A stretch of DNA of 64,000 bases from Bolinopsis microptera (lineage: Eukaryota; Ctenophora; Tentaculata; Lobata; Bolinopsidae): positions 4,171,675-4,235,674 of the forward strand of contig NC_087078.1 in the NCBI RefSeq assembly GCF_026151205.1, given 5' to 3'. This document shows, piece by piece, positions 3,116-57,263 of this stretch (position 1 is its first letter; each line of letters starts with the position of its first letter). Below the pieces are notes generated by a model. It saw nothing but the letters and a program-made list of their open reading frames with translations. It did not search any database and had not been told where the DNA came from. Both the position numbers and the translations under genes were made by a program.

Positions 3116-3389
3116 TGGGTAGGATGACTGGGACAGATTATTCAACATTATAACTTTACAATATAAATAAACATTTACATTATGTTATGATTATGTAAAC
3201 TTAGACTATATGATCCATTCAGAAGCCTTTTATTGAGAGATGAGATCACGTTTCCATCAGATCTTATACTTTTGTCGAAAAGGGGCTGCATCTACAGTGC
3301 AAATGTTCGAACTTTCTTTCTGTACAGAAATATAATAATAAAGCATTTTAAAAACAAGTTTTTATTTATTTGACATGAAACTTCTTTAG

Positions 3390-8788
<5,399 letters not shown>

Positions 8789-20792: not shown

Positions 20793-23700
20793 CTGAGGGA
20801 GGAGGGTGGGGTTACCAGAGGTAGTAACAACAATATTAACAACAGTATTAACAACAATATTAATAATGTAGTGTTAACAAAACTTCTTCTCATAACATTT
20901 CCAGCATTCACAACAAACTAAATGTCAACGTGGTAAAAAGTTTGGGTATTAACCCTATAGTTTTCGATTGCTTAAAATTTGATGCAGTACGTTTTTTGAT
21001 TTTACATTTTTACAGTTCAATTTAAGCACATTATAATTCATTATTACTTTAACTTATCATGTTTAGGCATCTTATAGATCTGTTTAATTCATATAATCTG
21101 TTTCAATTTAAACTATTATTGATATGTTTAATTCAAATAATATGTTTCAATTTAAGCTATTACTATAGATCTGTTTAATTTATATAATCTGTTTCAATTT
21201 AAGCGTAATATTGATCTGTTTAATTCATAGAATATCTTTCAATTTAAGCTATTATAGATCTGTTTAATTCATATAATATGTTTCAATTTAAGCGTATTAT
21301 TGATCTGTTTAATTCATAGAATATGTTTCAATTTAAGGTATTATGTATCTGTTTAATTCATAGAATATCTTTCAATTTAAGCTATTATAGATCTGTTTAA
21401 TTCATATAATATGTTTCAATTTAAGCGTAATATTGATCTGTTTAATTCATAGAATATGTTTCAATTTAAGCTATTATAGATCTGTTTAATTCATATAATC
21501 TGTTTCAATTTAAGCGTATCATTGATCTGTTTAATTCATATAATCTGTTTCAATTTAAGCGTATTATTGATCTGTTTAATTCATATAATATGTTCCAATT
21601 TAAGCTATTATTGATCTGTTTAATTCATATAATACGTTTCACCGGTTACCCGGTTTCTCTCGAACTACTTCAATTTAACTAGTAGTGAAGTTCCTATTTA
21701 TGTATACAGTTCACATAAGTACATTAGATAATTAATAGGTAATTAATTGACGTATCAGAGTTAAATCAACAGTTTCATAATTGGGACAATTGGTATGTGG
21801 CTTTGAAGCTATTTTTAAGTTATCGTCTGATTTTGACAGTAAATTCGAAATTACGTAGAAACCCACACGAATTTCAGCTAATTCAGACCACAAGCAATAT
21901 TATAAAAACAGACTGTGTAATTTTTATTTTTTGGTGGAATTTTAACCACACTAAAATGAGATGTTAGTTACCCACAGTTACAATGAAACTACAATACCCC
22001 GCTACAACAATTAATTTTACTTAACTAAATACCCCAAATATAGTTTACTTACTAAACCCACCTAGACATCTCTTGAGCACTTTAATACAGTACCCAGCGA
22101 ATCTTCCAGCGTTAGTTTTCTGTTCAGAGTACCTCTCCAGGTGCGCTTTTAAATACGACATCACCCGACCTGATAGTAAAGTTATTAGAGGAGGTTTTAT
22201 TAGTTATTAGAGGAGGTTTTATTAATAAAACACCAGGATGTGATGAAATCACAAGATTTAAGGGACAATTTTAAAGGAATAAGTTTGCCAAAATTATAAC
22301 TTTTAACGATCCATGATTATATCAATTCCACCTAACTTAAACAATAAACAGTACACACTATAGTTACTATACTACAGTTATATATACTATAGTAACGACA
22401 CTAGTAACAGTACCTTTAGGAGTGATAAAAGGGATGACAGTAGCCAGTACATGCCAGTAAGCAAGGTGTTCACGAGATTGTCTGTGTGTTTGTTTCAGTA
22501 GCTGACAGTACAGTTCGTTAACCAGTTCTACGCTGGTCAGGGTGAGGAGGGTTCGTGATGCGTTGTACAGGTCCCGTGGCTGGAGGGATGGGGTTTGTAA
22601 GGAACTGAGCTATTTATAGATTATATTAGCAGTAAAGAGTTGTAGTGTAAGTTATTTTGATATTTCCAAATAAAATCGGGTATGATATTTTTTATATTCA
22701 TGCAATATGCAGGATGCAACTGTGGTAGGCACTAGGCGTGTTTAATTATTAAATGACAGACAGCATGTATATTGTATGTTGCCAATTAATTGATTAATTA
22801 AACAGTTTCTTCCAGGAAATAACAACTTTAATATAATAACACCCTCATGACTGGATCGCTTGTCTCAGTAATTAACAAATAGGGGTATAGACAAGAATAA
22901 TCACTACACAATTATACAATTAACTCGCATAATTACCATATTTAAGTAATTTACTCACGTTCTCAGCGTACTCGTGAAGAGTCTTGTTGATGCGTATAGC
23001 AATGGAGGTATGGTAAGGAGAGGAGAGGTTAGTTAGTGGGTTAGAGAGAGGTTTGGAGCTATGAGACAGGGTCGGGGAGCTCAGCACTTGCTTTACCTGG
23101 CTCTGAAACACAAGGAAATATTTTAATACGGATATTAAACATAAAAATATTATGTTCATACGTGGGTTCCGATCAAGATATTCTCCTGTGACAACATTCA
23201 GTATCAATTCATTCAGATAGTCACTGATTAAATAAATTCGCTCATTTAGACCGGGTCTCATACAAAAGGGTATATCATTCAAAGAAAATGTTGACAATTT
23301 AAAAACTTTTGTTGTCAAGTATTCACAATTTGGAGCTCAGCGTAAATTTTGTTATTTGTTTGCTTTGTTGTCAACGGATTTGTGCAAAAGTTTATTATAT
23401 TTTAGCGAATTTGCAACTGAAATTTGAAATTCCTCGCTTGAAACATTCTATTTCTAGATATATTTAATAGTTAAATCATGCAAGTTAAAATTATCTTTGT
23501 CTATAAGAATTCACAGCGAGGGAGAATTAGTGAGCACCTCGCAGAGAAGCCTTGGCAGTAGCGCTATTTTTAAACAGGCCCTGTCTGCGTAATTACTTAT
23601 TTATTACTTGCAACAAAACTGCATTCATAAGCGTGCAGGAGTTTTTGTGGCTTTAACATTGCATCATGTCAGATGCAGTGTGGGTCTTATCGTCATACTG

Positions 23701-38700: not shown

Positions 38701-41700
38701 ATTAAACTTTCGAGGTAGGTATCCCAGATATTTGTCATGACCCCCCTTAACATTGGTGCACAAATCACATTTGGAAACGTGCCATCTAGTTAACATCCCG
38801 GTGATAATTTGATTACTAAGATCGAATTAACGGTTCCCACTCAGTGTGATTACTTTGATTGCAGGTATTGAAGTGCGTTTCCAGTTCTCTGAAACGCGGG
38901 AATAGTTGACGTAATCTTACGTAACATAATGTAAGGATTGTGACATTTAAACAAGCCGAACTATAACATAACCATTATGATTTAAAATCATCTAAATTAG
39001 TCCGAAAGAAAAGAAAAGGCTCTTCTTTGTTAACAGATGGTTCCGGATGTTAAAAAAGGACTAAGAACTATGTTTACACTATGATATTTATATACATCCT
39101 ATATGACTCAACAAGTCTTAATTGATAAGAGTTTTAATTGATGTGAGAATCAATTAATGTCAAAGATAACTTAATCGATAGTTAATTTGTAGCTTGGGAA
39201 GTCATTAGTTTACAGTAATGAACTTGGAGATGCACTTACCAAAATCTGATTGAAATGGTTGCCAGGGGAAGCTGGTACATGTTGTGGGGATGACACATGT
39301 GGTGACGTCAAGTGGTGTTGTGGTGACGTCACGCGGTGTTGTGGTGACGTCACGCGTTGTTGTGGTGACTTCACGTTATTATCGTCAGGACTAATTGACG
39401 TGTAGAGTGGGTCTTGGGAACTTACAGACTGCAAAAGTAAAATTAGTTGATTGTATATAACCGTAACATAAAATTTAAACAGTCTGTTAAAATTATCCGC
39501 ATTTCATACAAATCTATGTTGTAAATTAGTCAGTAGAATTAGAAAGGTGTGCGGAGGTGAATTAATAAATAAAGTAACCAATTAGCGTGACTTACAGATG
39601 TGTGCTGGTAGATAGGTGAGAAGGGTTGAGCAAGGTTGCTGTTGCTATGGTTACCATTATTATTACTCATCTTGGGTGAGCCCAGGTTGAAATCTCTGCA
39701 GCACTTTTTGTAAGCCTCCTCAAAAATAGCTATTCTATTGCAAGCCTGGACTCTGTTTATCTGTAATAAGGTTTACCTTATAGACTATACCATCTGTCTA
39801 AAGATGAATTTAATCTATCTCGTTGTGGTATTCTAATACAATTATCTTAGTTTTAACATTTTAATGATATACTGTTAGTTCAGTAATTAAACTAAACTTC
39901 GACGTAAAAGTTGGAGAATTTTACGAAAATTAAATTTTCTTTTCACTTTGACGTCACACTTGCGTCCTTGATCCTTATTCTCAGCCTATCCTTTTAAAAA
40001 TGAAACATTCTGTAGATTCCTTCTGTTATTGGACCTAATTTTAAGATAAATATAAATATAAATAATAAAGTCCAATTTCTAATAAAGTAATTTATCGGTA
40101 AATATTTGTGTCCGTTATATAAGGAACTATAGATGATGCAGCAAATCCGATCGATTAGTTTAATTAGTAATTGACGTATCCTACATTTAGTTGGACTGAA
40201 TATTTAAAGCCGGATATAAAGAGGGTATAGAATATTATAGAGTATAAAGTGGTAAAACAACAAACCTCCTTCAGTCTCTCAATCTCAGTGTTCAACTCCG
40301 CAATCTTCCCATTCTCAACTTGCTCTACTTGGCGTTTTAACCGAATATTCTCAATCTCTAAACTCCTTATAGATTTGTGTATGTGCTCCTTTATCAACTT
40401 CACTTTCTGGCTCACAGAATCTTCGTCCCGTTTTCGTTGTATCCGCTGAAATATTCGAAATATTCACCAAATTGGGTTTAGGATGAGCTATTTTTAGAGA
40501 TGAGTTTTAGGGCTACATCAGTCGTCATCTAGGCAGTTCCGTAATGAGAATTTAATTGGTACTTAAAATAGTAAAAGAAGGCTGATTTTAATGAAGTACA
40601 TTGAAAAGAAGAAGACCACTAAGTATTCCTAAGTCCTAACACACTGTCAGTTCAACTAAGTAGGTTTATTAAATCACACATTAACCAAAGTAATCCCCCT
40701 CACAGACCACACCCCACCCCTACACAGCACTACCACACCCCGCCCCATGAAGACGAACTCGTTAGTCAGGGAGTTTAAAACGTGTTATTTTAGCGAAACT
40801 GGGAGTCAGAGGGGTCCGTTATAATACTATCAATAAAGGGGCAGACTAATGCAGTGCAGTTCCAGTGCCCTCCTGACAGGTGGAACGTGTTTAAATACCT
40901 GTGTGAGTCATATTCCCACAACAATACCCATACTAAACCCCAGTCTATTAATAGATATATCTCAAAACAGATAAGTGAGCTACAACTGAGTAAGAAGTCA
41001 GTAAAAAATTCTCCACTTACCAGAGCCTGGAAAGAGCCAGAATAACATTAAAACTCCACTTACCAGAGCCTCTATCTCCTCCTCTAAAGCCAGAATAACA
41101 TTAAAACTCCACTTACCAGAGCCTCTATCTCCTCCTCTAAAGCCAGAATAACATTAAAACTCCACTTACCAGAGCCTCTATCTCCTCCTCTAAAGCCAGA
41201 ATAACATTAAAACTCCACTTACCAGAGCCTCTATATCCTCCTCTAGAGCTAGAATAACATTAAAACTCCACTTACCAGAGCCTCTATCTCCTCCTCTAAA
41301 GCCAGAATAACATTAAAACTTCACTTACCAGAGCCTCTATCTCCTCCTCTAAAGCCAGAATAACATTAAAACTCCACTTACCAGAGCCTCTATCTCCTCC
41401 TCTAAAGCCAGAATAACATTAAAACTCCACTTACCAGAGCTTCTATCTCCTCCTCTAAAGCCAGAATAACATTATTCTTCTCCGTCAGCTCTTCTCTGAG
41501 TTGTGTGTTTTGTGCACGTAATTTAGCCGTGATAACGTCGTGACGGTCCAGCGCTTCGTGGTGCAACGCTAGGTTGTCATTCATCTAGCGGAGGGAGGGG
41601 TTATGGGTGGCAATGAAATATTAATGTTAGATCGAAATTATGTTATATGTGTGTGTGTGTGTACAGAGTGCTTTAAACTAATTACTACAAATCCATACAT

Positions 41701-44700: not shown

Positions 44701-47486
44701 GGACATCAGTAGACAAGCAGTACACTACCCGTTATATCACACCTCTACAGCTCACTACCGTTCACTTCTATCACACCTCTACAGCTCACTACCGTTCACT
44801 TCTATCACACCTCTACAGCTCACTACCGTTCACTTCTATCACACCTCTACAGCTCACTACCGTTCACTTCTATCACACCTCACCTGTATTTCAGCTTACT
44901 TCTATCACACATTAGCTGTATTTCAGCTTACTTCTATCACACATTAGCTGTATTTCAGCTTACTTCTATCACACCTCCGCAGTCCGCAGTAATTCAGCTT
45001 ACTTCATCTTCTATATCGGGTGGTGTTCAGACAGGGACGAGGGTGGCTGAGCACTATAACAGTGACACTCAGACACTGTCACAGACAGTCACTCACCACT
45101 GTCACACTACTGTCACACTACTGTCATACTTGTCACACTAATTGGCAAGGTTCACAAATACAGTATTAGGGTTTCTAGAGTAAGACAAGCGGTCTCGAGA
45201 TATGGCGTGATGATCACCGTTTAATCTTAAGATTCTACACTGGATTATCCTGGGGCATGGGCAACTGCGGCTTAACAAAATCACCACTGACTCGTCAATG
45301 TCAAACAGTTTCATAAAAGAGCATGGGAAAAGCTGTAGTTGTACACTTCACAGGATATTTTATAGAACATGGTTATAAAGGAAGATAAGACGGCTGAAAT
45401 CCGGAATACAGCCATGTTAAAAAGCAAACTATGCAAAAAGGAGGAAGTAAGCAGAATAACCGAGTGGAGGAAAACCAAAACTGCAGCTGAAGTATTTACA
45501 GAGCTGGCAAAATATCCGGCTAAAGGAACACTTCCTTGATTAAACACCTCAATATTGTGCTCCAAATTGGAAGCAGTAATAAGTCCTCAAACATAACGTA
45601 GTGAGGTTACGTAGCTCCTAATTCTAACTAGATATATAGAGGTAACACCAAACCCAGCTAAGGGTCAGGACAACAGTAGAGCAACTAGTAGCAGTAGTGG
45701 AGAAACTAAGAGAGGAGTTTAACAGCACGGCACTGCAATTTTCACTGTCGCAGTTCAACCAACTTTAAACAACTAATCAGCTGGGTTAGTTCTGGTCACG
45801 TGACCAGAGTTCTGATCTCTGATTGGTAGACGTATAGTAATACAAGTATTCCTCCTCTCGGAGCCTGAGGGCCATAATAAACTGCGCCACTGTAGTTCCA
45901 TGAGATTTTAACCGGTGTTCCTTAAATTCGGGGCTTAATAGTCGATACATGATATAAATTATGAGACGGAAATCGTTACATCGGTCAAATCGGTCACATG
46001 GCCCTAGTTTGATGCATTTAACAACCTTAAAAGCTTAAACATATCAGAAAACCAAATCATCGATCGTCAAAAATAGAGATGGTCGCATTGTAAAAACACA
46101 GTAAATTGCATTATTTAAAGTAGATAAAAGCCAGAACCAACAAGGTGGTAAAATATCAGTACTGATAACAGAGAAAGAGAGAAAACAGAGAGATAAGAGA
46201 GCAATTAAGGAAAAGTTAAACTTGCTCGGAAGAGATAAACAACAAAAGGAGCCTTACATTCCATCATCTGTCAACATCACACACACACACACAGAGGTAC
46301 AACTGTGAGCTGCCCAGGAGCTGTTGTGATACATCTCCACAAGAGGGCCAGACAGAGCCCTCACCCAATCGTAGAACAGAGGCTCAGTCACGTGATCCCA
46401 ATAGGATGGGTCACGTGATCAGAGCTGTGACAATATTGGAACACATGGAATCCGGACTGTGGATATCTAGCTCATTAGCGAGCAAATTGTACACCAGTTC
46501 AGACTTCTCCCTCATTATGCCGGCTGGTTTATACTCTGTGTAATGACCCATCTCATTATAGGGTCATGCTATCAGATAAGTCACAACCAACTGTAACAAA
46601 TGATTATCATATTATCTTATCATTTATGTGTACATATTGTTAGAAGGAGGAGGAGCTAGCAATCTTAGATCACTTAAAGCACATACAGAGATAAATTAGG
46701 GATGTTAAATGAGAGCTAGAGATATCGCTCTCAGATAGTCCATATTACCATTGAGGACTGTATTTTGCGTTTCAATCACCAAAAGAAATAAAAGAAAGGT
46801 TCTTTACAAAATCACACCGATACAAAGACAGTAGGTACACACTTTGACTAGGTACAGACATTAATCGAGAGACAAAAACCACCATTAACCGGTAAACATG
46901 ACTTACTCTCTCGTATTTAGGTGATTGGCAAAATTGCTAACAATAGCCCTACAAAATCACGTGTAAGTGTGTGTGCTCAGTGAGTTTATAAACAGATTAC
47001 AGGATTGTTGTATAATGTATATCCATTAGTGGTTTAGAAACCACAATGTTGTTTAATAATATGGTATTACTGATAATATAGTATAATATGATATTACTGA
47101 TAATATAGTAATAATACATGATATTACTGATAAATAAGACTCGTTTATAAACAAACCTGCTGCTTTATAACTCGACTGTTCTTCTCCTCTACCTCTAGCT
47201 TCTGTTGAGCAATCTCAACCTGCTCTTCAAGCTCTCTTATCTGTAATAAACGTATTGCTATAACTGTATATCACCTGTTTACATTTTTCTAATAGTTAGT
47301 CTAAATCGTTCAATTGAAAAAGAATGCAGTCTATCATATTTGATGTTCCCCTTATAGGTAGGAGCTTTTGAAAAATACGACTTGACAAACCTTTTGGGGC
47401 ACAATTCGGCTTATTTTAGTAGCTTGCATGCGGTAGTGATCGAGTTGTCTTTCAGCATTGTTATATTTCTCCATCCATTCTCCCAT
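11012..47486 (-). CDS. PLEKHH1/2-like: PLEKHH/MAX-1-like coiled-coil, PH, MyTH4, FERM protein
   Basis: Likely cytoplasmic, membrane-associated adaptor; MAX-1/PLEKHH proteins act in axon guidance and actin-rich protrusions. Exons in transcript order: 47391-47486, 47157-47240, 41435-41584, 40266-40445, 39596-39760, 39240-39428, 37127-37284, 36817-36994, 35849-36031, 35505-35664, (34681-34782), (32280-32402), 30696-30768, 25470-25576, 24705-24779, 22959-23102, 22414-22579, 22062-22169, 20762-20792, 20667-20719, 17897-17957, 17305-17350, (17137-17211), 12572-12748, 11730-11956, 11482-11605, 11239-11355, 11012-11086. Bracketed exons are tentative. Elsewhere phases agree at each junction, except that joining 34681-34782 to 32280-32402 needs an exon not found. 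The model gives about 1140 residues; human paralogues, from memory, have about 1360-1490. The first half of the first PH domain was not located. Confidence 0.8.
12560..12571 (-). other. 5' splice site, PLEKHH FERM F2 exon
   Basis: The exon ends GCGCAG followed by GTATGTTA on the minus strand. This consensus donor fixes the exon end and the reading frame AVMAQ|AIEGN. Confidence 0.7.
14574..15251 (-). mobile_element. 5'-truncated non-LTR retrotransposon, reverse transcriptase C-terminal part
   Basis: An open frame of 225 residues resembles the thumb/C-terminal part of jockey/CR1-type LINE reverse transcriptases: SRFIGVMYRIKHKLPMKAR, then QSFVQSHLNFCSLVW and AKQKQGMRAVMAG, the usual 'L...LP.....IY.SL...HL.Y...VW......I..LQKKAIR.I' pattern. 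The catalytic palm (YADD) and endonuclease are absent, so the copy is truncated and dead, although this piece is still uninterrupted. It lies within a PLEKHH intron in the same orientation as the gene. Confidence 0.75.
15801..15990 (+). repeat. 25-bp E-box minisatellite, seven units
   Basis: Seven head-to-tail 25-base units. Each carries a CAGCTG palindrome (CAGCTGCTAT) followed by TCACGTGA and ATTGTTT. CACGTG starts at about 15814 and recurs every 25 bases to about 15964. Partial CAGCTG copies flank both ends. It lies in a PLEKHH intron. The motifs match binding sites of bHLH and bHLH-ZIP factors; use in vivo is unknown. Confidence 0.9.
16743..16830 (+). promoter_or_regulatory. Tandem pair of CRE-like palindromes
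   Basis: Two copies of a block of about 42 bases (CCGGAGCxTGCTGTG followed by ATGACGTCATCAAGTT) each contain TGACGTCA, the full CREB/ATF palindrome. The surroundings are more GC-rich than the rest of the intron. About 75 bases further on, GCCACCATGACC resembles a start context but opens only a 25-codon frame (16902-16979). This could be an internal promoter or enhancer of either strand. Confidence 0.4.
18777..18877 (+). repeat. 12-bp minisatellite (GTAGCACGTGGG)n
   Basis: Eight to nine copies of GTAGCACGTGGG or the variant GTAGCACGTGGT. Every unit contains CACGTG. The array produces a Val-Ala-Arg-Gly open frame on the plus strand with no sign of being a gene. Confidence 0.9.
19111..19274 (+). 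CDS. Orphan plus-strand terminal exon candidate
   Basis: A good acceptor (ATTTTTCTTCCAG) is followed by 54 open codons and a TGA. In phase 1 it reads KHRPVLPNNYQIADI, then NLKPEMILQTILSP and SDEQLVDIQNT. It lies in a PLEKHH intron on the opposite strand. The phase would accept the donor of HELLS exon 9 (8016), and both this exon and HELLS exon 10 begin with AACACCGCCCAG coding HRP. It could be an alternative last exon of HELLS, a nested gene's last exon, or a relic. No upstream partner exon was found between 9 and 19 kb. Confidence 0.35.
19686..20666 (+). repeat. 33-bp minisatellite, about 30 units
   Basis: Unit: CTAACTAATTGTGGCTGTG then TGTAAACTGTAAAA. Copies differ mainly at one site (AATT, AATG or AACT before GTGGC). 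Two units carry an extra TAGTG. On the minus strand each unit holds GTTAGTTTTACAG, like a donor fused to an acceptor. The array ends precisely at the 5' splice site of PLEKHH exon 20667-20719, and the first intron bases of that donor belong to the repeat. Confidence 0.95.
21060..21645 (+). repeat. 44-bp AT-rich minisatellite
   Basis: About 13 diverged copies built from GATCTGTTTAATTCATATAA and TATGTTTCAATTTAAGC followed by a variable TATTATA/GTATTATT tail. It lies in a PLEKHH intron. Higher-order pairs alternate between the two tail types. Confidence 0.85.
22062..24779 (-). CDS. PLEKHH1/2-like: PLEKHH MyTH4 domain exons
   Basis: Exons 24705-24779, 22959-23102, 22414-22579 and 22062-22169. 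The MyTH4 core reads LVNELYCQLLKQTHRQSREH, then AYWHVLATVIPF and a separate exon with SYLKAHLERYS...FAGYCIKVLKRCL. This matches the family signature 'L..EI.CQLIKQT......GW.LLAL...F.P......YL..HL......YA.YC...L.R'. MyTH4 domains bind microtubules or partner tails together with FERM. The start of exon 22414-22579 was set at CCATCCCTCCAG|CCACGG because only that acceptor keeps phase 0. Confidence 0.85.
25225..25345 (+). mobile_element. Possible short retroelement fragment
   Basis: The string GTCGACGTTTCGGC, then GCCTTTGTCAT, resembles a motif common near the 3' ends of many invertebrate LINE/SINE copies ('GACGTTTCG..TTCATCA'). No coding part or clear boundaries are visible, so this is weak. Confidence 0.25.
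25470..34782 (-). CDS. PLEKHH1/2-like: PLEKHH PH-domain region exons (partly tentative)
   Basis: Four pieces were assembled. 34681-34782 is phase-compatible with the exon before it (KHRTNIIFCIDSKNLP). 32280-32402 contains SPQSIQLVEGIIYRITNTP, resembling the 'QTVQL....YYLTADSP' strand of PLEKHH PH1. 30696-30768 (YWRHENRWES...EKLVIMSKKR) has a strong GTAAGT donor and joins by a split Gly codon to 25470-25576 (VKSSIGKLPTYTVTEQ...), matching 'TLYYFRSQED..LGQIKL' of PH2. The last two are well supported by phase. The first two are inference and the chain between them is incomplete. Confidence 0.5.
26995..27105 (+). repeat. 15-17 bp tandem repeat (TCAGGATATTGTGTTC)n
   Basis: Seven or eight units of TCAGGATATYKTGTTC, with one insertion of TATA. 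It lies in a PLEKHH intron. It creates two overlapping plus-strand open frames that are not genes. Confidence 0.85.
28489..28527. repeat. Hairpin with 15-bp perfect arms
   Basis: The arms ACTCTAGTTCGACAA (28489-28503) and their exact reverse complement (28513-28527) flank a 9-base loop. Related CTAGAGT/GTCGAACTAG pieces recur up to 28585. It is intronic. Confidence 0.85.
28755..28985 (+). repeat. Two short tandem arrays
   Basis: Four copies of CACGTATTGTAGGT (28767-28818) are followed by a degenerate array of ACTACTTCACTG/ACTACTCCACTCT units (about 28865-28970). Both lie in a PLEKHH intron. No exon is evident. Confidence 0.8.
30024..30172 (+). repeat. 16-bp minisatellite (TATTATAGGAGTCCTG)n
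   Basis: Nine units of TATTATAGGAGTCCTG with small changes (TTTTATAGG, TATTGTAGG). Each contains the near palindrome AGGAGTCCT. It is intronic in PLEKHH. Confidence 0.9.
30287..30458. repeat. Imperfect foldback (inverted repeat)
   Basis: The left arm begins AGGGTGGTGAGATTCTAACT (30288) and ends GGTGGTGTTAGTCAC. The right arm is its reverse complement, ending at 30457-30458, with about 25 extra bases inside. The two ends match strongly and the central loop is short, as in a foldback or MITE-like insertion with one internal deletion. Confidence 0.8.
32945..33050 (+). repeat. 30-bp tandem repeat, three units
   Basis: Three units of TGACTCTCAACTCGGCTGCTG preceded by ATTGGATCA, ATTGGATAA or ATTGGCCAG. 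Each has a GATTGG (inverted CCAAT) box. It is intronic. Confidence 0.85.
34245..34340 (+). repeat. GTTACCTGGTAAC-type repeat
   Basis: Repeated TTACCTGGTAAC and CTGATTACCTGGTAACTTG units. Each unit is itself palindromic (GTTACC/GGTAAC). It is intronic in PLEKHH. Confidence 0.75.
35372..35428. repeat. Near-perfect palindrome, 28-bp arms
   Basis: The arms at 35372-35399 and 35401-35428 are exact reverse complements separated by one base (A35400). The left arm begins AGTAAAGTTACCACAATAG. No mismatch was found. Such sequence would extrude a cruciform or fold into a microRNA-length hairpin if transcribed. It is intronic in PLEKHH. Confidence 0.92.
35505..37284 (-). CDS. PLEKHH1/2-like: PLEKHH Ser/Pro-rich linker exons
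   Basis: Four exons encode a low-complexity linker rich in Ser, Pro and Asn. It includes SPPLPPRRTSAS (a possible SH3 ligand and basophilic kinase site), a cysteine cluster MCCPQSCCPSK in the first exon, and NDYDEIPCEG (a phosphotyrosine-like motif) in the second. The junction 37127/36994 is split AA|T (Asn), which shows that the donor is GTAAGT at 37126. The last exon ends with KRSWETLIDSLALVGFTDALPN, the segment just ahead of the PH region. Confidence 0.75.
39240..47486 (-). CDS. PLEKHH1/2-like: PLEKHH N-terminal coiled-coil exons
   Basis: Six phase-0 exons. The first opens MGEWMEKYNNAERQL and continues YRMQATKISRI, the same pattern as the start of vertebrate PLEKHH proteins (a short helix, then RxQATKIRELL). 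The following exons are rich in Glu, Gln, Leu and Lys with heptad spacing (LEEQVEIAQQKLE, EELTEKNNVILALEEEIEAL, IARL-type repeats). The fifth ends in a polar Asn/Ser linker. The sixth (39240-39428) contains a 21-base tandem repeat coding VTSPQHR about three times, with many Ser-Pro sites that could be phosphorylated. The exon at 41435 ends in a sequence copied tandemly in the next intron. Confidence 0.85.
41000..41470 (-). repeat. 53-bp tandem repeat copying an exon end and its 5' splice site
   Basis: About nine units. On the minus strand each repeats the last roughly 35 bases of PLEKHH exon 41435-41584 (coding VILALEEEIEAL), the donor GTAAGTGGAG, and TTTTAAT. The real exon end is the upstream-most copy in the transcript; the others lie in the following intron. 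Units differ by single bases; the copy near 41235 reads TATATCC and TAGAGCTAG. The 53-base length is not a multiple of three. Confidence 0.92.
41643..41665 (+). repeat. (GT)n microsatellite
   Basis: ATGTGTGTGTGTGTGTGT, a short dinucleotide run in a PLEKHH intron. Confidence 0.8.
43845..44415 (+). repeat. 32-bp minisatellite, about 18 units
   Basis: Unit: AACTATCACCTAGCAACC followed by TGAGGGTACTTAGC. Several units carry an extra ACCTAGCATC duplication. Degenerate copies continue to about 44490. It lies in the largest PLEKHH intron. Confidence 0.93.
44735..44995 (+). repeat. 34-bp and 30-bp tandem arrays
   Basis: Four or five units of CACACCTCTACAGCTCACTA plus CCGTTCACTTCTAT are followed by three units of CACATTAGCTGTATTTCAGC plus TTACTTCTAT. 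The second family looks derived from the first. It is intronic. Confidence 0.88.
45369..45539 (+). other. Short plus-strand open frame, 56 codons
   Basis: ATG to TGA, reading MVIKEDKTAEIRNTAMLK and then KKEEVSRITEWRKTKTAAEV. The composition (Lys, Glu, Thr, Ala) is unusually protein-like for an intron of the opposite-strand gene. There is no splice signal, family match or upstream regulatory element. It may be a fragment of a mobile-element protein. Confidence 0.2.
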
Positions 47487-47687
47487 GCTATAACCTAATA
47501 TATTGTATCAGTTTAGATATTGTAATTATCAAACAATATTATACTTAGATGCAGCATAATGTTGACAATCATTAAGTTTCTTTAGATTGAAATTTAAATA
47601 AGATAATGTAGAAATTGCTATGCTCATCAAGATTTTGAACAAAAGTATGATAGATTAATATAGTGCTAAGTGCATGCAAAAATGATA
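47487..47687 (-). other. Compact intercistronic region HSPBAP1-PLEKHH
   Basis: Only 201 bp separate the HSPBAP1 stop from the PLEKHH ATG on the minus strand. No AATAAA or ATTAAA is seen in the sense orientation. The region ends in a pyrimidine-poor but acceptor-like TTAGGTTATAG directly before CATGG. This spacing suits an operon or an alternative promoter; an ordinary promoter would have to fit within it or within HSPBAP1. Confidence 0.5.
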
Positions 47688-48833
47688 TTATCTAAGACTA
47701 GAATTCAAAAGTTTATCACTAAGTTTGTTCATTATATCACGATCACATACAATTAGATTGATAAGAGTGTCAACAACAGATTTATCTGGTTGTTCCTGGC
47801 TACTCTTTTTGTAGCTAGAAGGATGTTTTGGTAAAGGAATACGCTGAATGAAGCTATCAGATGTGGCTGCAGCTTTGTCAACTATAAAATAACACTGTTC
47901 ACTTTCGCCATCTTTTCTTGACATGTTTGGGGACCCAGAAGCTTGATTACTTTGATTGATAGCCTGCCTCAAAAACATCTCATTTTCATGAGGTTTTGAA
48001 ATTTCTTCTCCTGGATTTACCCAATCTTGTGAAGACTCATATCCTTTTAGACTACAAACTAATAATCGAGTTATTGCTTCTTGAATTCTATCAACAGAGT
48101 CAGTGGATAGTTCAATCCAAGTGTTTATACTAACAGAAGTCTCTAAATTGCGTGCAAGGTGCCACCAATGTTTAGGAATAAAAATAACCTCTCCAGGAGA
48201 CACAACAATTCGTAATGCAGATTTTGCATAATTTTTGTCTAAAACATCAACAGAGCTAAAAGTACTGCTCTCCTCATATGGCAAACGCGTTGCTCCCAAA
48301 TCATAGTCTGGGGGCCACAGCAGCCACTCTTTACATCCAATAATCTGAGCGTGAAGATTACAACCATATGAATCCTGGTGACAAGGTGTGAAACTGCCAG
48401 TAGATCCTGCCCACAATGTAGACTTGGAGGAACCTACATCCTTCAACCCAGCCCAACTCCAATCAAAAGTATGAAATTGTTGGGTAGTGCTATTAAGAGT
48501 TGCAAAATGGGTATATCCAGCATAATGAAAAGTTTTAGTATCACGATTAGTTGCAAGAAATCTAAAGAATTCTCCCAGATCTTGTGGTTTAAAGCTGCAG
48601 TCAGATTCTTTCGGAACCTGGTCACCTGTGTATGGCTTACCCATTTTCACAGTGACTGTTTGACCAACAGTGCATTTGGCAAGAAAGTCAAGATCCCACG
48701 AACTGGGATACCAATCAGCAACAAAATTTTTCATCAAGGTAACACAGTTCTTTTGCATCAGGAAGGTGCTAAATATATCATTTTCGATTTCACAACGGTT
48801 TTTATTTACTGCACAGCGACTTGTCATATCCAC
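47688..48833 (-). CDS. HSPBAP1: HSPBAP1-like JmjC-domain protein
   Basis: JmjC (cupin) oxygenase-like protein. The vertebrate relative binds the small heat-shock protein HSPB1 and modulates stress responses; its enzymatic substrate is not settled. The single exon codes 381 residues; human HSPBAP1, from memory, has 488. The block STLWAGSTGSFTPCHQDSYGC and then RLPYEESSTFS matches the human protein closely. The Fe(II) triad is present: His152 and Asp154 (CHQD) and His225 (KHWWH). VSINTWIEL, EAITRLLVCSLK and a diverged acidic C-terminal tail follow. The first ATG is used; a possible acceptor (ATTTATAG) lies 7 bases before that ATG's leader. The gene has no introns while its neighbours have many. 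Its stop is 201 bp upstream of the PLEKHH start on the same strand. Confidence 0.9.
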   Translation of the reverse strand: MDMTSRCAVNKNRCEIENDIFSTFLMQKNCVTLMKNFVADWYPSSWDLDFLAKCTVGQTVTVKMGKPYTGDQVPKESDCSFKPQDLGEFFRFLATNRDTKTFHYAGYTHFATLNSTTQQFHTFDWSWAGLKDVGSSKSTLWAGSTGSFTPCHQDSYGCNLHAQIIGCKEWLLWPPDYDLGATRLPYEESSTFSSVDVLDKNYAKSALRIVVSPGEVIFIPKHWWHLARNLETSVSINTWIELSTDSVDRIQEAITRLLVCSLKGYESSQDWVNPGEEISKPHENEMFLRQAINQSNQASGSPNMSRKDGESEQCYFIVDKAAATSDSFIQRIPLPKHPSSYKKSSQEQPDKSVVDTLINLIVCDRDIMNKLSDKLLNSSLR

Positions 48834-49372
48834 TTAAAGCTATAAATAATTATATTGGAGTTAGTTAGTCAATCGCTAATTGTATATGAATATGAAATTT
48901 TACAGTACAAAATAAATAATAGACATTTTTCCTATAAATGGGTGCCGAAGAAAAATTAAATTCCGTCGTTGACACAAATAAGGATAACACATTCTTCAGT
49001 ATCTAAACAGAGGACTGAACATAATTGACACAATCAGTTAGTTACCGCAATGATGAACATTGAACATAAGGTTCATCGATAAGCTATTGAAGCCAATCCG
49101 ATCATCAACCGTTTAAAACAATTTACGCAATTTGAAAAACATCAGACAGCTTATAAAACAAAGTTTCAGAGTTTATCATGAGAAAATAAGAAAAGATAAT
49201 TTACAAAGGACACAAACTACAAAATATTTTTTAGTATCCCTCCTTTCCTTAGTCACTTAGTATAGGAAACACAATGGTTACACAATATTTGAACGGTGCC
49301 AAAGACAAATTAACAAAAAAAGCATAGAACAGAGTATTTAGAATGACTGTATAATGCAACTGAGCCAGTATA

Positions 49373-49886
49373 ATGCAGACTGAGCCAGTTCTTCTTCCAG
49401 TTGATGGTCTAGAGTTACCAAAGGGAACAGTCCTAGGAGACCAAGCTAGGCTGGACATTTCTGCAAGATCGATTTGGAATGCTTCAGAGAGGGCATTTTT
49501 TGATGTAAGGGTATTTCATGCCCCAGCCCCCTCCAATGCAAGCAAATCGATCCCAGCGATGTACCAGTCCCATGAAAATGAGAAAAAAGCGATGTTACAA
49601 CGCAAGAGTTCTTGGAGTGGAGAAAGAAAGCTTCACACCTTTAGTTTTCTCGACTTCTGGTGGAATGGGTGGTGAAGCTGAAAGACTGGTTAAGAAGCTG
49701 GCCAGTAAGATGGAGTACCACACTGGCCAGAGGTACTCGGATGATGTAGGATACATTAGAAAGCGCCTTCGCTTTGAAATCCTAAGAACAACAGTGATTT
49801 CTCTCCGTGGAGACAGAGGTGCAAGAAAAAACATTGTTGATATAAACAGTATAGATCTTAACTTGGAGCCACAAGGCCAAGGGTAA
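49373..49886 (+). pseudogene. Frameshifted 3' ORF of a retrotransposon (nuclease-like domain)
   Basis: Two overlapping frames make one protein. The first (from 49373) reads ARLDISARSIW and then FFDVRVFHAPAPSN. The second (to 49886) continues VEKESFTPLVFSTSGGMG and IRKRLRFEILRTTVISLRG. I recall this order from mobile-element proteins abundant in cnidarians and other invertebrates; D...DVRV resembles a PD-(D/E)XK nuclease core. The frame changes at the A-run 49583-49588. A-rich runs at 49985-50008, about 100 bases after the stop, look like a LINE-type tail. No upstream polymerase remains. The copy is truncated and dead. Confidence 0.55.
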
Positions 49887-50084
49887 TTTTTGATTGTTTA
49901 GGAAACTTTTTTAATTTTTAAAGGGTAGATTTTATATAGGGTCATTGCTATATTATGTGTATATTGTTTGAATAATTTTATTAAATCAAAAAAAAACAAA
50001 AAAAAATAATGCAACTGAAATGATTATATCGAATTCGCAACATAGATAACGATATTTTTGAGCCAGCTATGATCGAAGCTTACT

Positions 50085-54622: not shown

Positions 54623-56158
54623 CTAACTCCCTTGTTCGACACATTGAGATTCTGAAAGAGGTGCTTCTGTTTTGACTTCAGTACTGACTGGTTCCGGTAC
54701 GACTGACGGCGAAGATTCGGCTGTGACAGGTTCAACTGGGGCAGCTTCTTCTACTGGGGCAGCTGCAACTGGGGCAGCTTCTTCTACTGGGGCAGCTGCA
54801 ACTGGGGCAGCTGCAACTGGGGCAGCTTCAACTGGGGCAGCTGCAACTGGGGCTGCTTCTTCTACTGGGGCAGCTGCAACTGGGGCAGCTTCAACTGGGG
54901 CAGCTTCAACTGGAGCAGCTGCAACTGGGGCAGCTTCTTCTACTGGGGCAGCTGCAACTGGGGCAGCTGCAACTGGGGCAGCTTCGACTGGAGCAGCTTC
55001 AACTGGGGCAGCTGCAACTGGGGCTGCTTCTTCTACTGGGGCAGCTTCAACTGGGGCAGCTTCGACTGGGGCAGCTTCTTCTACTGGGGCAGCTGCAACT
55101 GGGGCAGCTGCAACTGGGGCTGCTTCTTCTACTGGGGCGGCTGCAACTGGGGCAGCTTCAACTGGGGCAGCTTCAACTGGGGCAGCTGCAACTGGGGCAG
55201 CTTCTTCTACTGGGGCAGCTTCGACTGGAGCAGCTTCAACTGGGGCAGCTGCAACTGGGGCTGCTTCTTCTACTGGGGCAGCTTCAACTGGGGCAGCTGC
55301 AACTGGGGCAGCTTCAACTGGGGCTGCTTCTTCTACTGGGGCAGCTGCAACTGGGGCAGCTTCAACTGGGGCAGCTTCAACTGGGGCAGCTGCAACTGGA
55401 GCAGCTTCTTCTAATGGGGCAGCTGCAACTGGGGCAGCTGCAACTGGGGCGGCTTCGACTGGAGCAGCTTCAACTGGGGCAGCTGCAACTGGGGCTGCTT
55501 CTTCTACTGGGGCAGCTGCAACTGGGGCTGCTTCTTCTACTGGGGCAGCTGCAACTGGGGCAGCTTCTTCTAATGGGGCAGCTGCAACTGGGGCAGCTGC
55601 AACTGGGGCAGCTTCGACTGGAGCAGCTTCAACTGGGGCAGCTGCAACTGGGGCTGCTTCTTCTACTGGGGCAGCTTCAACTGGGGCAGCTTCGACTGGG
55701 GCAGCTTCTTCGACTGGAGCAGCTTCGACTGGGGCAGCTTCGACTGGAGCAGCTACAACTGGAGCAGCTTCAACTGGGGCAGCTTCGACTGGGGCAGCTT
55801 CAACTGGGGCTGCTTCTTCTACTGGGGCAGCTTCAACTGGGGCAGCTTCGACTGGGGCAGCTTCGACTGGGGCAGCTTCGACTGGGGCAGCTTCTTCTAC
55901 TGGGGCAGCTTCTTCTACTGGGGCAGCTTCAATTGGGGCAGCTTGTTCAGGAACAGTAGTGGCAGCATCACTCTCAACAGCCGCGACCTCCGCAGCCGCC
56001 TCCGAAATTACTGCCAACTCCTCGTGGGTTGCATCTCCATTAATTTTGACTGGTTCCTCCTCCGGCCTCATCTGGTTTTCTGGCGAGTGGGATGGACTTA
56101 CCGTGGACTGAGAGTCTCCCATCAAACGAGGGTCCACTTGTACCTTCTTCATGTTTTG
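54623..56158 (-). CDS. Ala-Pro-Val-Glu repeat protein
   Basis: Function not recognised. The exon starts after a clear acceptor (GTTATTTCAG) at 56158 and the first ATG is at 56152, so a 5' UTR exon or a trans-spliced leader probably precedes it. The predicted protein has 509 residues: a unique acidic start of about 60 residues (MKKVQVDPRLMGDSQSTVSP...), about 410 residues of AAPVE, AAPVEE and AAPVA units in irregular order, and a short tail ending SESQCVEQGS. There is no signal peptide or membrane span. The repeat should be extended or disordered, like a spacer or PEVK-type spring. It might also be a last exon of the gene to its right, since exon phase cannot exclude this. Repeat length is likely variable between alleles. 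Confidence 0.65.
   Translation of the reverse strand, partial: QNMKKVQVDPRLMGDSQSTVSPSHSPENQMRPEEEPVKINGDATHEELAVISEAAAEVAAVESDAATTVPEQAAPIEAAPVEEAAPVEEAAPVEAAPVEAAPVEAAPVEAAPVEEAAPVEAAPVEAAPVEAAPVVAAPVEAAPVEAAPVEEAAPVEAAPVEAAPVEEAAPVAAAPVEAAPVEAAPVAAAPVAAAPLEEAAPVAAAPVEEAAPVAAAPVEEAAPVAAAPVEAAPVEAAPVAAAPVAAAPLEEAAPVAAAPVEAAPVEAAPVAAAPVEEAAPVEAAPVAAAPVEAAPVEEAAPVAAAPVEAAPVEAAPVEEAAPVAAAPVEAAPVEAAPVAAAPVEEAAPVAAAPVAAAPVEEAAPVEAAPVEAAPVEEAAPVAAAPVEAAPVEAAPVAAAPVAAAPVEEAAPVAAAPVEAAPVEAAPVAAAPVEEAAPVAAAPVEAAPVAAAPVAAAPVEEAAPVAAAPVEEAAPVEPVTAESSPSVVPEPVSTEVKTEAPLSESQCVEQGS
54725..55960 (-). repeat. Coding 15/18-bp minisatellite
   Basis: On the plus strand the units are ACTGGGGCAGCTGCA, ACTGGGGCAGCTTCG or ACTGGGGCAGCTTCTTCT. 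The 15-base unit gives AAPV(E/A) and the 18-base unit gives AAPVEE on the minus strand. Because both lengths are multiples of three and no unit holds a stop in several frames, long open frames also run antisense (54672-56111) and in a third frame (55414-55959). Confidence 0.95.
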
Positions 56159-57263
56159 CTGAAATAACATCGGTTAAGATTTATGTCAAGTTTCCCATGG
56201 CAGAATGTCTCAGTGTGGGTCTCCTTTCTGTCATTTTTAGTTCATCAGTTTTTCTGTCCTATTTTTATGAAGTCGGTGACAGGGATGAAGTGGAGTTGGG
56301 TACATGATGCATGGGGATGTGGAGACACAGAGAGGAATTAAGAGGTATGATTAATGATGACATATGAATCCATGAGGTGATGAACGATGATACCCTCCTG
56401 AATGAAGACGAAATGTTCCTGAGTAGTGAACGAATAGTGAATCATTGCTGTCATAGGTCAGAAGTAAATATTTTGGGGTGTCTTGAGCCAGTCGCTAGTG
56501 AGAAAATATTCTCATTACATATATATTTCATTTAGAACTGTCAGACACATTATTTCTTCTCACGCTGGTTTAATTTGATCATGAAAATGAGACAGAGTAC
56601 TTTCAAAAGCAATAATATAGACACAGAATCACAAGCAATCAAAATTTGCCAGTATGCTTCATGTCCTTCACAAAAACTTATCAAAATTTTAACATGAAAT
56701 ATAAAACAGATTGTGCCGAACAAGAAAATAATTAATTCAGGTATTTTCTTATACAGTAAATCAGTCTGGGGGTAAATTTTGTAAGGTCGAGTTCATTTTG
56801 ATTTAATGACCGCCTGTTTATGTTCATTTTAAATCTTTAGAGTTCAGAGTTAAGTCAGATTGTACGGCGTCAGCTCCGTCAACTGGCCCCAGCAGATTCC
56901 TCTGAGTGGATATATAAAACATATCAGTTTACTTGTCTGTTTTGTGTTAAATTACTTGATAATATTACGAAATTTACATCGGTGGAATGAAAACTATTTC
57001 GTGAGAAAGACATGTATGATTCTGGAAATAATAACCAATAAATCTATGCTACTTCCATCTACACTCAGTATAGTACCTACTACCTAACTCAAACAAATAA
57101 CTTCACCCGTGCCGACTATAATACAATAACTCCCCGCGCACACATACAGGATATAAACCCCAAAAACTAAGATTTGTCTCAGTAGCACAGACTGTGACAG
57201 GAAAGGTAAAACACCATAGAAATCAAAGGCCTCTCTACTCGCTGTTTTCTCGCCGTCGTACAG
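56159..57263. other. Gap between the two right-hand minus-strand genes
   Basis: No coding exon is supported. It should contain the 3' UTR of the coiled-coil gene and the promoter or leader exon of the repeat-protein gene. ATTAAA in the minus sense occurs near 56803. The open frame at 56860-57087 has no features. Confidence 0.4.

Follow-up and report, generated by a model that had tools for sequence, protein, structure and literature searches.

Putative genes for two spliced leaders, and leader-tagged retrocopies, in the genome of Bolinopsis microptera

The HSPBAP1-PLEKHH locus

The window considered here is a stretch of 64,000 nucleotides from the ctenophore Bolinopsis microptera (contig NC_087078.1, positions 4,171,675 to 4,235,674); positions given without a contig or locus label are those of the window. 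It contains an HSPBAP1-like gene followed closely, on the same strand, by a PLEKHH-like gene, as well as genes for HELLS and for a repeat protein. The initial annotation proposed that spliced leader (SL) trans-splicing acts at these genes, and that the first two form an operon. Trans-splicing was borne out by SL RNA genes, tagged retrocopies and likeness to a leader of Hormiphora, whereas the operon gained no direct support. It is highly probable that the sequence belongs to a ctenophore-like genome with SL trans-splicing, tandem SL RNA genes for two leaders (SL1 and SL2) and retrocopies that carry a leader.

The HSPBAP1-like gene encodes a JmjC/cupin protein of 379 amino acids in a single-exon open reading frame (ORF) at 47688..48827 on the minus strand (Pfam Cupin_8, E = 1e-22; JmjC, E = 3.4e-06). 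A genome search found one copy, the next matches having just 26% and 30% identity, and the nearest solved chains were those of JMJD5; the name HSPBAP1 is presumptive. The first coding part of the PLEKHH-like gene (MGEWMEKYNN...), identified by exon scan, lies at 47391..47486 on the minus strand, with its ATG at 47486 and a donor AAG/GTTTGT (slashes mark splice junctions). We take this exon to align with the vertebrate N-terminus. A MyTH4 domain on the same strand, within the stretch 22370-22609 (Pfam E = 2.4e-07), would belong with the exon to one gene, a PLEKHH.

Between the HSPBAP1 stop and the PLEKHH start codon, at 47487..47687 on the minus strand, are 201 bp that contain no AATAAA, no ATTAAA and a single AATATA, 18 nt before the PLEKHH ATG. 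Coordinates and motif scan agreed with the annotation that the genes share a strand, lie 201 bp apart and have no sense AATAAA between them. Past the HSPBAP1 stop, AATAAA is absent for 790 nt and the first ATTAAA occurs at 633 nt. The argument from poly(A) signals is weak, because a stretch of 201 bp is often without AATAAA by chance. At the gathering cut-off, Rfam produced no matches in the window.

Tandem SL RNA genes

SL RNA genes often sit beside 5S genes, and this guided a search of the genome (264.65 Mb in 232 contigs, the large contigs being labelled C1, C2, C3 and so on), in which at least 47 5S matches were found. In the 5S repeats of C5 there was a unit on the 5S strand comprising an exon ending in TTTGAG, then GTAAGATTAAG, a hairpin, ATCTTTTGG and another hairpin. 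The exon, SL1, is about 41 nt long (TTTTAATACTTTCAACACTACTATATAACAAATAATTTGAG) and TTTGAG is followed directly by a GTAAG donor. The same unit occurred in two 5S repeats on C13, which were 87-88% identical to those of C5 over the whole repeat. In 13 distinct units (12 from C5 and one from C13), 98.3% of the 119 columns of the SL1 RNA were invariant, compared with 81% upstream and 38% downstream (300 columns each side). The predicted fold of this RNA had an energy of -33.3 kcal/mol (z = -3.24), and none of 200 shuffles was as good. The SL1 3' end with its donor was present in 73 copies (16 + 57; reversed control 0 and 0), distributed among C3 (36), C13 (23), C5 (12), C1 (1) and C2 (1). Those on C3, C5 and C13 stood in arrays, with a period on C3 of mostly 591 bp. 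The core GAGGTAAG was absent from the nine loci with lone 5S copies (L029-L036 and L048).

The second leader, SL2 (...TAAACTAATTACAACACTACAAATCTATTACATTTATTGAG), was found in 271 + 353 copies (control 0 and 0), and 77 of the first 100 listed places belonged to one C1 array, whose units repeat every 434 bp. The unit of this array has an exon different from that of SL1, followed by an intron that is homologous to that of SL1 and contains the same GTAAGATTAAGTTCCAATGTGTAAC. After both exons the order is GTAAGATTAAG, hairpin II, a Sm-like site CTTTTGG and hairpin III. Relative to SL1, hairpin II of SL2 carries one compensatory double change, from T-A to A-T; hairpin III keeps the SL1 stem and has a changed loop. 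All five of the other SL2 copies examined had differing upstream flanks. Leader exon, GT donor, Sm-like site and hairpins, in many copies, are the features expected of SL RNA genes; the Sm site is putative, and it and the hairpin layout were compared with those of typical SL RNAs. The genome encodes at least two leader RNAs.

Isolated 5S genes without an SL unit were also seen in inverted pairs about 3.2 kb apart (C3:20269999/20273132 and C3:2780523/2783742).

Leader-tagged retrocopies

The last 16 nt of the SL1 exon had 1658 exact genomic copies (794 + 864; reversed control 0 and 0), of which approximately 1585 were without the donor. A sample of 47 SL1 copies was examined, consisting of 42 of the 46 first-listed places on C1 (the four skipped being two head-to-head pairs) and copies in the loci L019, L021, L023 and L071. 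The 5' edge of the leader was sharp, agreement with the SL1 gene being 0.81-0.85 at positions -40 to -38 and then 0.66, 0.47, 0.45 and 0.19 at -41 to -44, and the 3' edge was exact, with 38 distinct 12-mers downstream. Behind the leader in L021 and both leaders in L023 lay an ORF1 with 2OG-Fe(II) oxygenase-like and GDSL-like matches and, in the same element, an ORF2 encoding an endonuclease-reverse transcriptase (RVT_1, E = 4e-37 to 2.9e-36); the leader in L019 preceded an ORF whose PHD-like match (E = 2.5e-4) was under the cut-off. Proteins of long interspersed nuclear elements (LINEs) behind SL1 copies imply that LINE RNAs bore the leader when they were copied, and the sampled donor-less copies are interpreted as heading retrotransposed RNAs.

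Two near-identical SL1-headed LINE copies were found in the same orientation, 6094 bp apart (L023:1200-6900 and L023:7290-L022:3000). Head-to-head SL1 pairs about 60-77 bp apart form a palindrome, for example in L070 (C1 3731100-3731300), and seven such pairs occurred among the first 100 listed places. Hammerhead-like motifs after some leaders were not supported by Rfam, whose six matches were all below the gathering score and mostly fell on the L070 palindrome.

A direct comparison of junctions was possible for one tagged copy (L056), which runs into an ORF beginning MKLFILLALF. The first 28 nt after its leader matched three genomic places within 3 mismatches. At C3:14105323 there was no leader; ...TTTCAATCTTGTTCTAG stood immediately before the 28 nt, and GCAG/GTTAG followed further on. 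The acceptor of this intron-bearing gene is TTGTTCTAG/CTAAATT. At the two other places SL1 stood exactly at that junction, and the sequence continued past the donor without the intron. A leader combined with a lost intron is the trace that would be expected of a retrotransposed mRNA that had been both cis- and trans-spliced, and in such genomic fossils various transcripts have the same leader attached at an AG acceptor.

Both leaders were represented within a single retroelement family (L091), for which 13 places were found within 3 mismatches and all were examined. Twelve carried SL1 and one SL2, and 11 of the SL1 leaders were at one junction. The remaining SL1 (L094) was followed by an AG two nt upstream of the common junction, from which it follows that a neighbouring AG was used there; SL2 (L100) was at the common junction itself. 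A switch between SL1 and SL2 inside one family shows that leaders were added to the RNA, rather than inherited with the element.

The proposed sequence of events is that tandem SL RNA genes supply SL1 and SL2, that target pre-mRNAs, LINE RNAs included, would receive a leader from the spliceosome at an AG acceptor close to their start, and that leader-bearing RNAs would then be reverse-transcribed into tagged retrocopies throughout the genome. HELLS and the repeat protein would undergo the same joining, as may HSPBAP1 and PLEKHH.

Several observations weigh against trans-splicing as reconstructed here. The support comes from genomic DNA. Rfam gave no SL RNA name in ten 5S loci, where 5S alone was matched. 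Hairpin II of SL2 has one broken pair, and the SL2 unit could not be aligned with stem I of SL1. Within the 28-nt pattern the two retrocopies show 1-2 mismatches to the intron-bearing gene, and their true parent may therefore be a paralogue. No SL1 end was found within 2 mismatches inside the window, and searches with patterns allowing 3 mismatches found no retrocopy of PLEKHH or HELLS bearing a leader; HSPBAP1 has no second genomic copy. It follows that no gene of the window was shown to receive a leader.

It is very improbable that the 41-nt repeat is instead the end of a mobile element, inserted also in the 5S-linked units: the 1658 dispersed copies and the head-to-head pairs would suit this explanation, but it is opposed by the donor and conserved RNA structure in the arrays, by retrocopies of one gene with the repeat exactly at the splice acceptor and without the intron, by two different leaders within one element family, and by a homologous leader on 56% of Hormiphora Iso-Seq reads (PMC8527503). 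SL trans-splicing in this genome is strongly supported by the combined pattern of arrays and retrocopies.

Candidate acceptors in the window

The AG noted by the initial annotation before the ATG of HELLS, PLEKHH, HSPBAP1 and the repeat protein was present at all four genes. An AG near an ATG is nearly uninformative by itself; in a sample of 4380 ATGs, drawn from the window together with 200 kb of flanking sequence, an AG occurred no more than 5 nt upstream in 35% and no more than 20 nt upstream in 74%. The four sites were scored with a matrix made from 19 cis acceptors, whose leave-one-out scores ranged from -0.4 to 10.4, the lowest four being 1.3 or less. The matrix is rough, since ten of the 19 sites are PLEKHH-region exons from a scan in which good acceptors were already preferred. 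Each site was compared at a cut-off (5 or 20 nt) fitted to its own distance, which makes the percentages given here generous to the initial annotation. The acceptor deduced from the retrocopies scored 6.6 bits on this matrix.

The candidate acceptor of HELLS (3388..3389, plus strand; CTTCTTTAG/ATG), directly before the ATG at 3390, scored 4.65 bits, a value reached by 2.7% of random ATGs. The upstream ATG that splicing there was said to remove does exist; it opens a four-codon ORF, and the candidate AG sits inside its stop codon TAG. A competing AG 62 nt before the ATG scored 6.1 bits, and its use would retain this small upstream ORF. For the EAAPV repeat protein, the AG at 56159..56160 (minus strand; TTATTTCAG/CAAAACATG), 6 nt before the ATG at 56152, scored 7.46 bits, which was reached by 1.6% of random ATGs. 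The candidate of HSPBAP1 (48840..48841, minus strand; ATTTATAG/CTTTAAGTGGATATG) lies 12 nt before the ATG and has CTAAC about 29 nt upstream; it scored 1.2 bits, equalled within 20 nt by 31% of random ATGs. That of PLEKHH (47488..47489, minus strand; GGTTATAG/CATGG), after which 47487 is the first base, also scored 1.2 bits, equalled within 5 nt by 10% of random ATGs. This weak site has a competitor, TTAG, 7 nt further upstream, and is on a par with three further AGs in the gap, which scored 0.7-1.8 bits.

As acceptors, then, the four sites fared unequally: the scores of HELLS and the repeat protein uphold the annotation, and those of HSPBAP1 and PLEKHH are near chance. Two of the four AGs look like real acceptors, and these are not those of the putative operon pair. 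Their good acceptors make HELLS and the repeat protein likely targets of trans-splicing. The AGs of HSPBAP1 and PLEKHH are weak, yet inside the range of cis acceptors, and trans-splicing may occur there.

The repeat protein itself (54623-56170, minus strand) is long and of low complexity, and the antisense strand is likewise open over long stretches.

Evaluation of the operon

Three arrangements could account for the closeness of HSPBAP1 and PLEKHH. Separate promoters, with PLEKHH transcription starting in the gap or in the 3' end of HSPBAP1, with or without a leader, have a probability somewhat short of even; on this explanation the genes are merely close. Closeness needs no shared transcript, and the weak acceptor before PLEKHH agrees with this, although the search for promoters was limited to reading the sequence.

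A dicistronic transcript from a promoter upstream of HSPBAP1, cut in the 201-bp gap and resolved by SL addition at 47487, is possible but doubtful. The shared strand, the tight spacing, the lack of AATAAA or ATTAAA and the SL machinery encoded in the genome are all in its favour, and the gap is shorter than both the limit of 250 bp applied to operons in chaetognaths (PMC12460157) and the 417 nt of a tested Hydra operon (PMC3273482). Against this, the PLEKHH acceptor does not stand out from the other AGs of the gap, a T-rich element was not evident there by eye, and one close gene pair proves nothing. A comparable arrangement is RFC140-flp of Hydra, also an animal with SL, where two genes on one strand are separated by a few hundred bp; there, transgenes were used to test the promoter-less gap, the T-rich element and the acceptor, whereas here there is sequence and a weak acceptor (PMC3273482). 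No ctenophore operon was found in the part of the literature surveyed, subscription papers being mostly outside its coverage. That HSPBAP1 and PLEKHH form an SL-resolved ctenophore operon, able to draw on two classes of leader, is on balance unlikely; if true, it would place operons in one of the earliest-branching lineages of animals, and a proven case would bear on the origin of SL splicing and operons in animals.

The nesting of HSPBAP1 within a 5' intron of PLEKHH is improbable. The first PLEKHH exon would then lie upstream of HSPBAP1, and the AG at 47488 would be a cis acceptor. No upstream PLEKHH exon was identified, and none that is coding is needed if the first coding exon matches the vertebrate N-terminus. 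HSPBAP1 has the one exon and one copy that would suit a nested gene, and in Hormiphora there are 2357 nested intronic genes in 1654 hosts, many of them parallel to the host (PMC8527503).

Comparison with other systems

A spliced leader was reportedly described from ctenophores by Derelle et al. in 2010. SL splicing in ctenophores is already published (PMC8527503), and the leader of Hormiphora californensis in that paper can be aligned with SL1 over its length, both ending in AATTTGAG (alignment score 60; maximum of 2000 shuffles 43.5). Hundreds of genomic leader copies are common to Hormiphora (718), Mnemiopsis (491) and the genome analysed here (PMC8527503). In the covered text of that paper the Hormiphora leader loci are undivided, whereas here the copies were sorted into donor-bearing array genes and donor-less retroposed copies; SL2, as a second leader, is a further difference from that account. 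This suggests that retroposition, and not SL RNA genes, may account for many of the leader copies reported from other ctenophores.

In Hydra, transposon RNAs are trans-spliced, accounting for about 30% of transposon Iso-Seq reads (PMC12220107). Transposon RNAs apparently receive the leader here also, the evidence being genomic in this case, inserted copies having the leader fixed at their 5' ends. The DinoSL retrogenes of dinoflagellates are similar in that a leader at the 5' end marks a retroposed gene (PMC12014239, PMC6050394); unlike these, the present case concerns an animal genome and two leaders, with LINE families as the main carriers in the sample. Leader-tagged retrocopies in ctenophores were not found described in the literature surveyed, within the same limits of coverage. 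Knowledge of SL splicing in ctenophores has come from RNA; here it is revealed by the genome alone, with two leader classes identified. Since retrocopies keep the leader, DNA by itself is enough to locate trans-splice sites.

Other features of the window

Upstream of HSPBAP1, at 49352-50018 on the plus strand, is an inserted, 5'-truncated LINE-like fragment ending in an A-rich tail and flanked by a 12-bp direct repeat (TAATGCAACTGA, at 49352 and 50007). In the PLEKHH region, at 41064-41401 on the minus strand, a 73-nt exon-like unit with acceptor and donor is present in three tandem copies, which are possibly alternative or duplicated exons.

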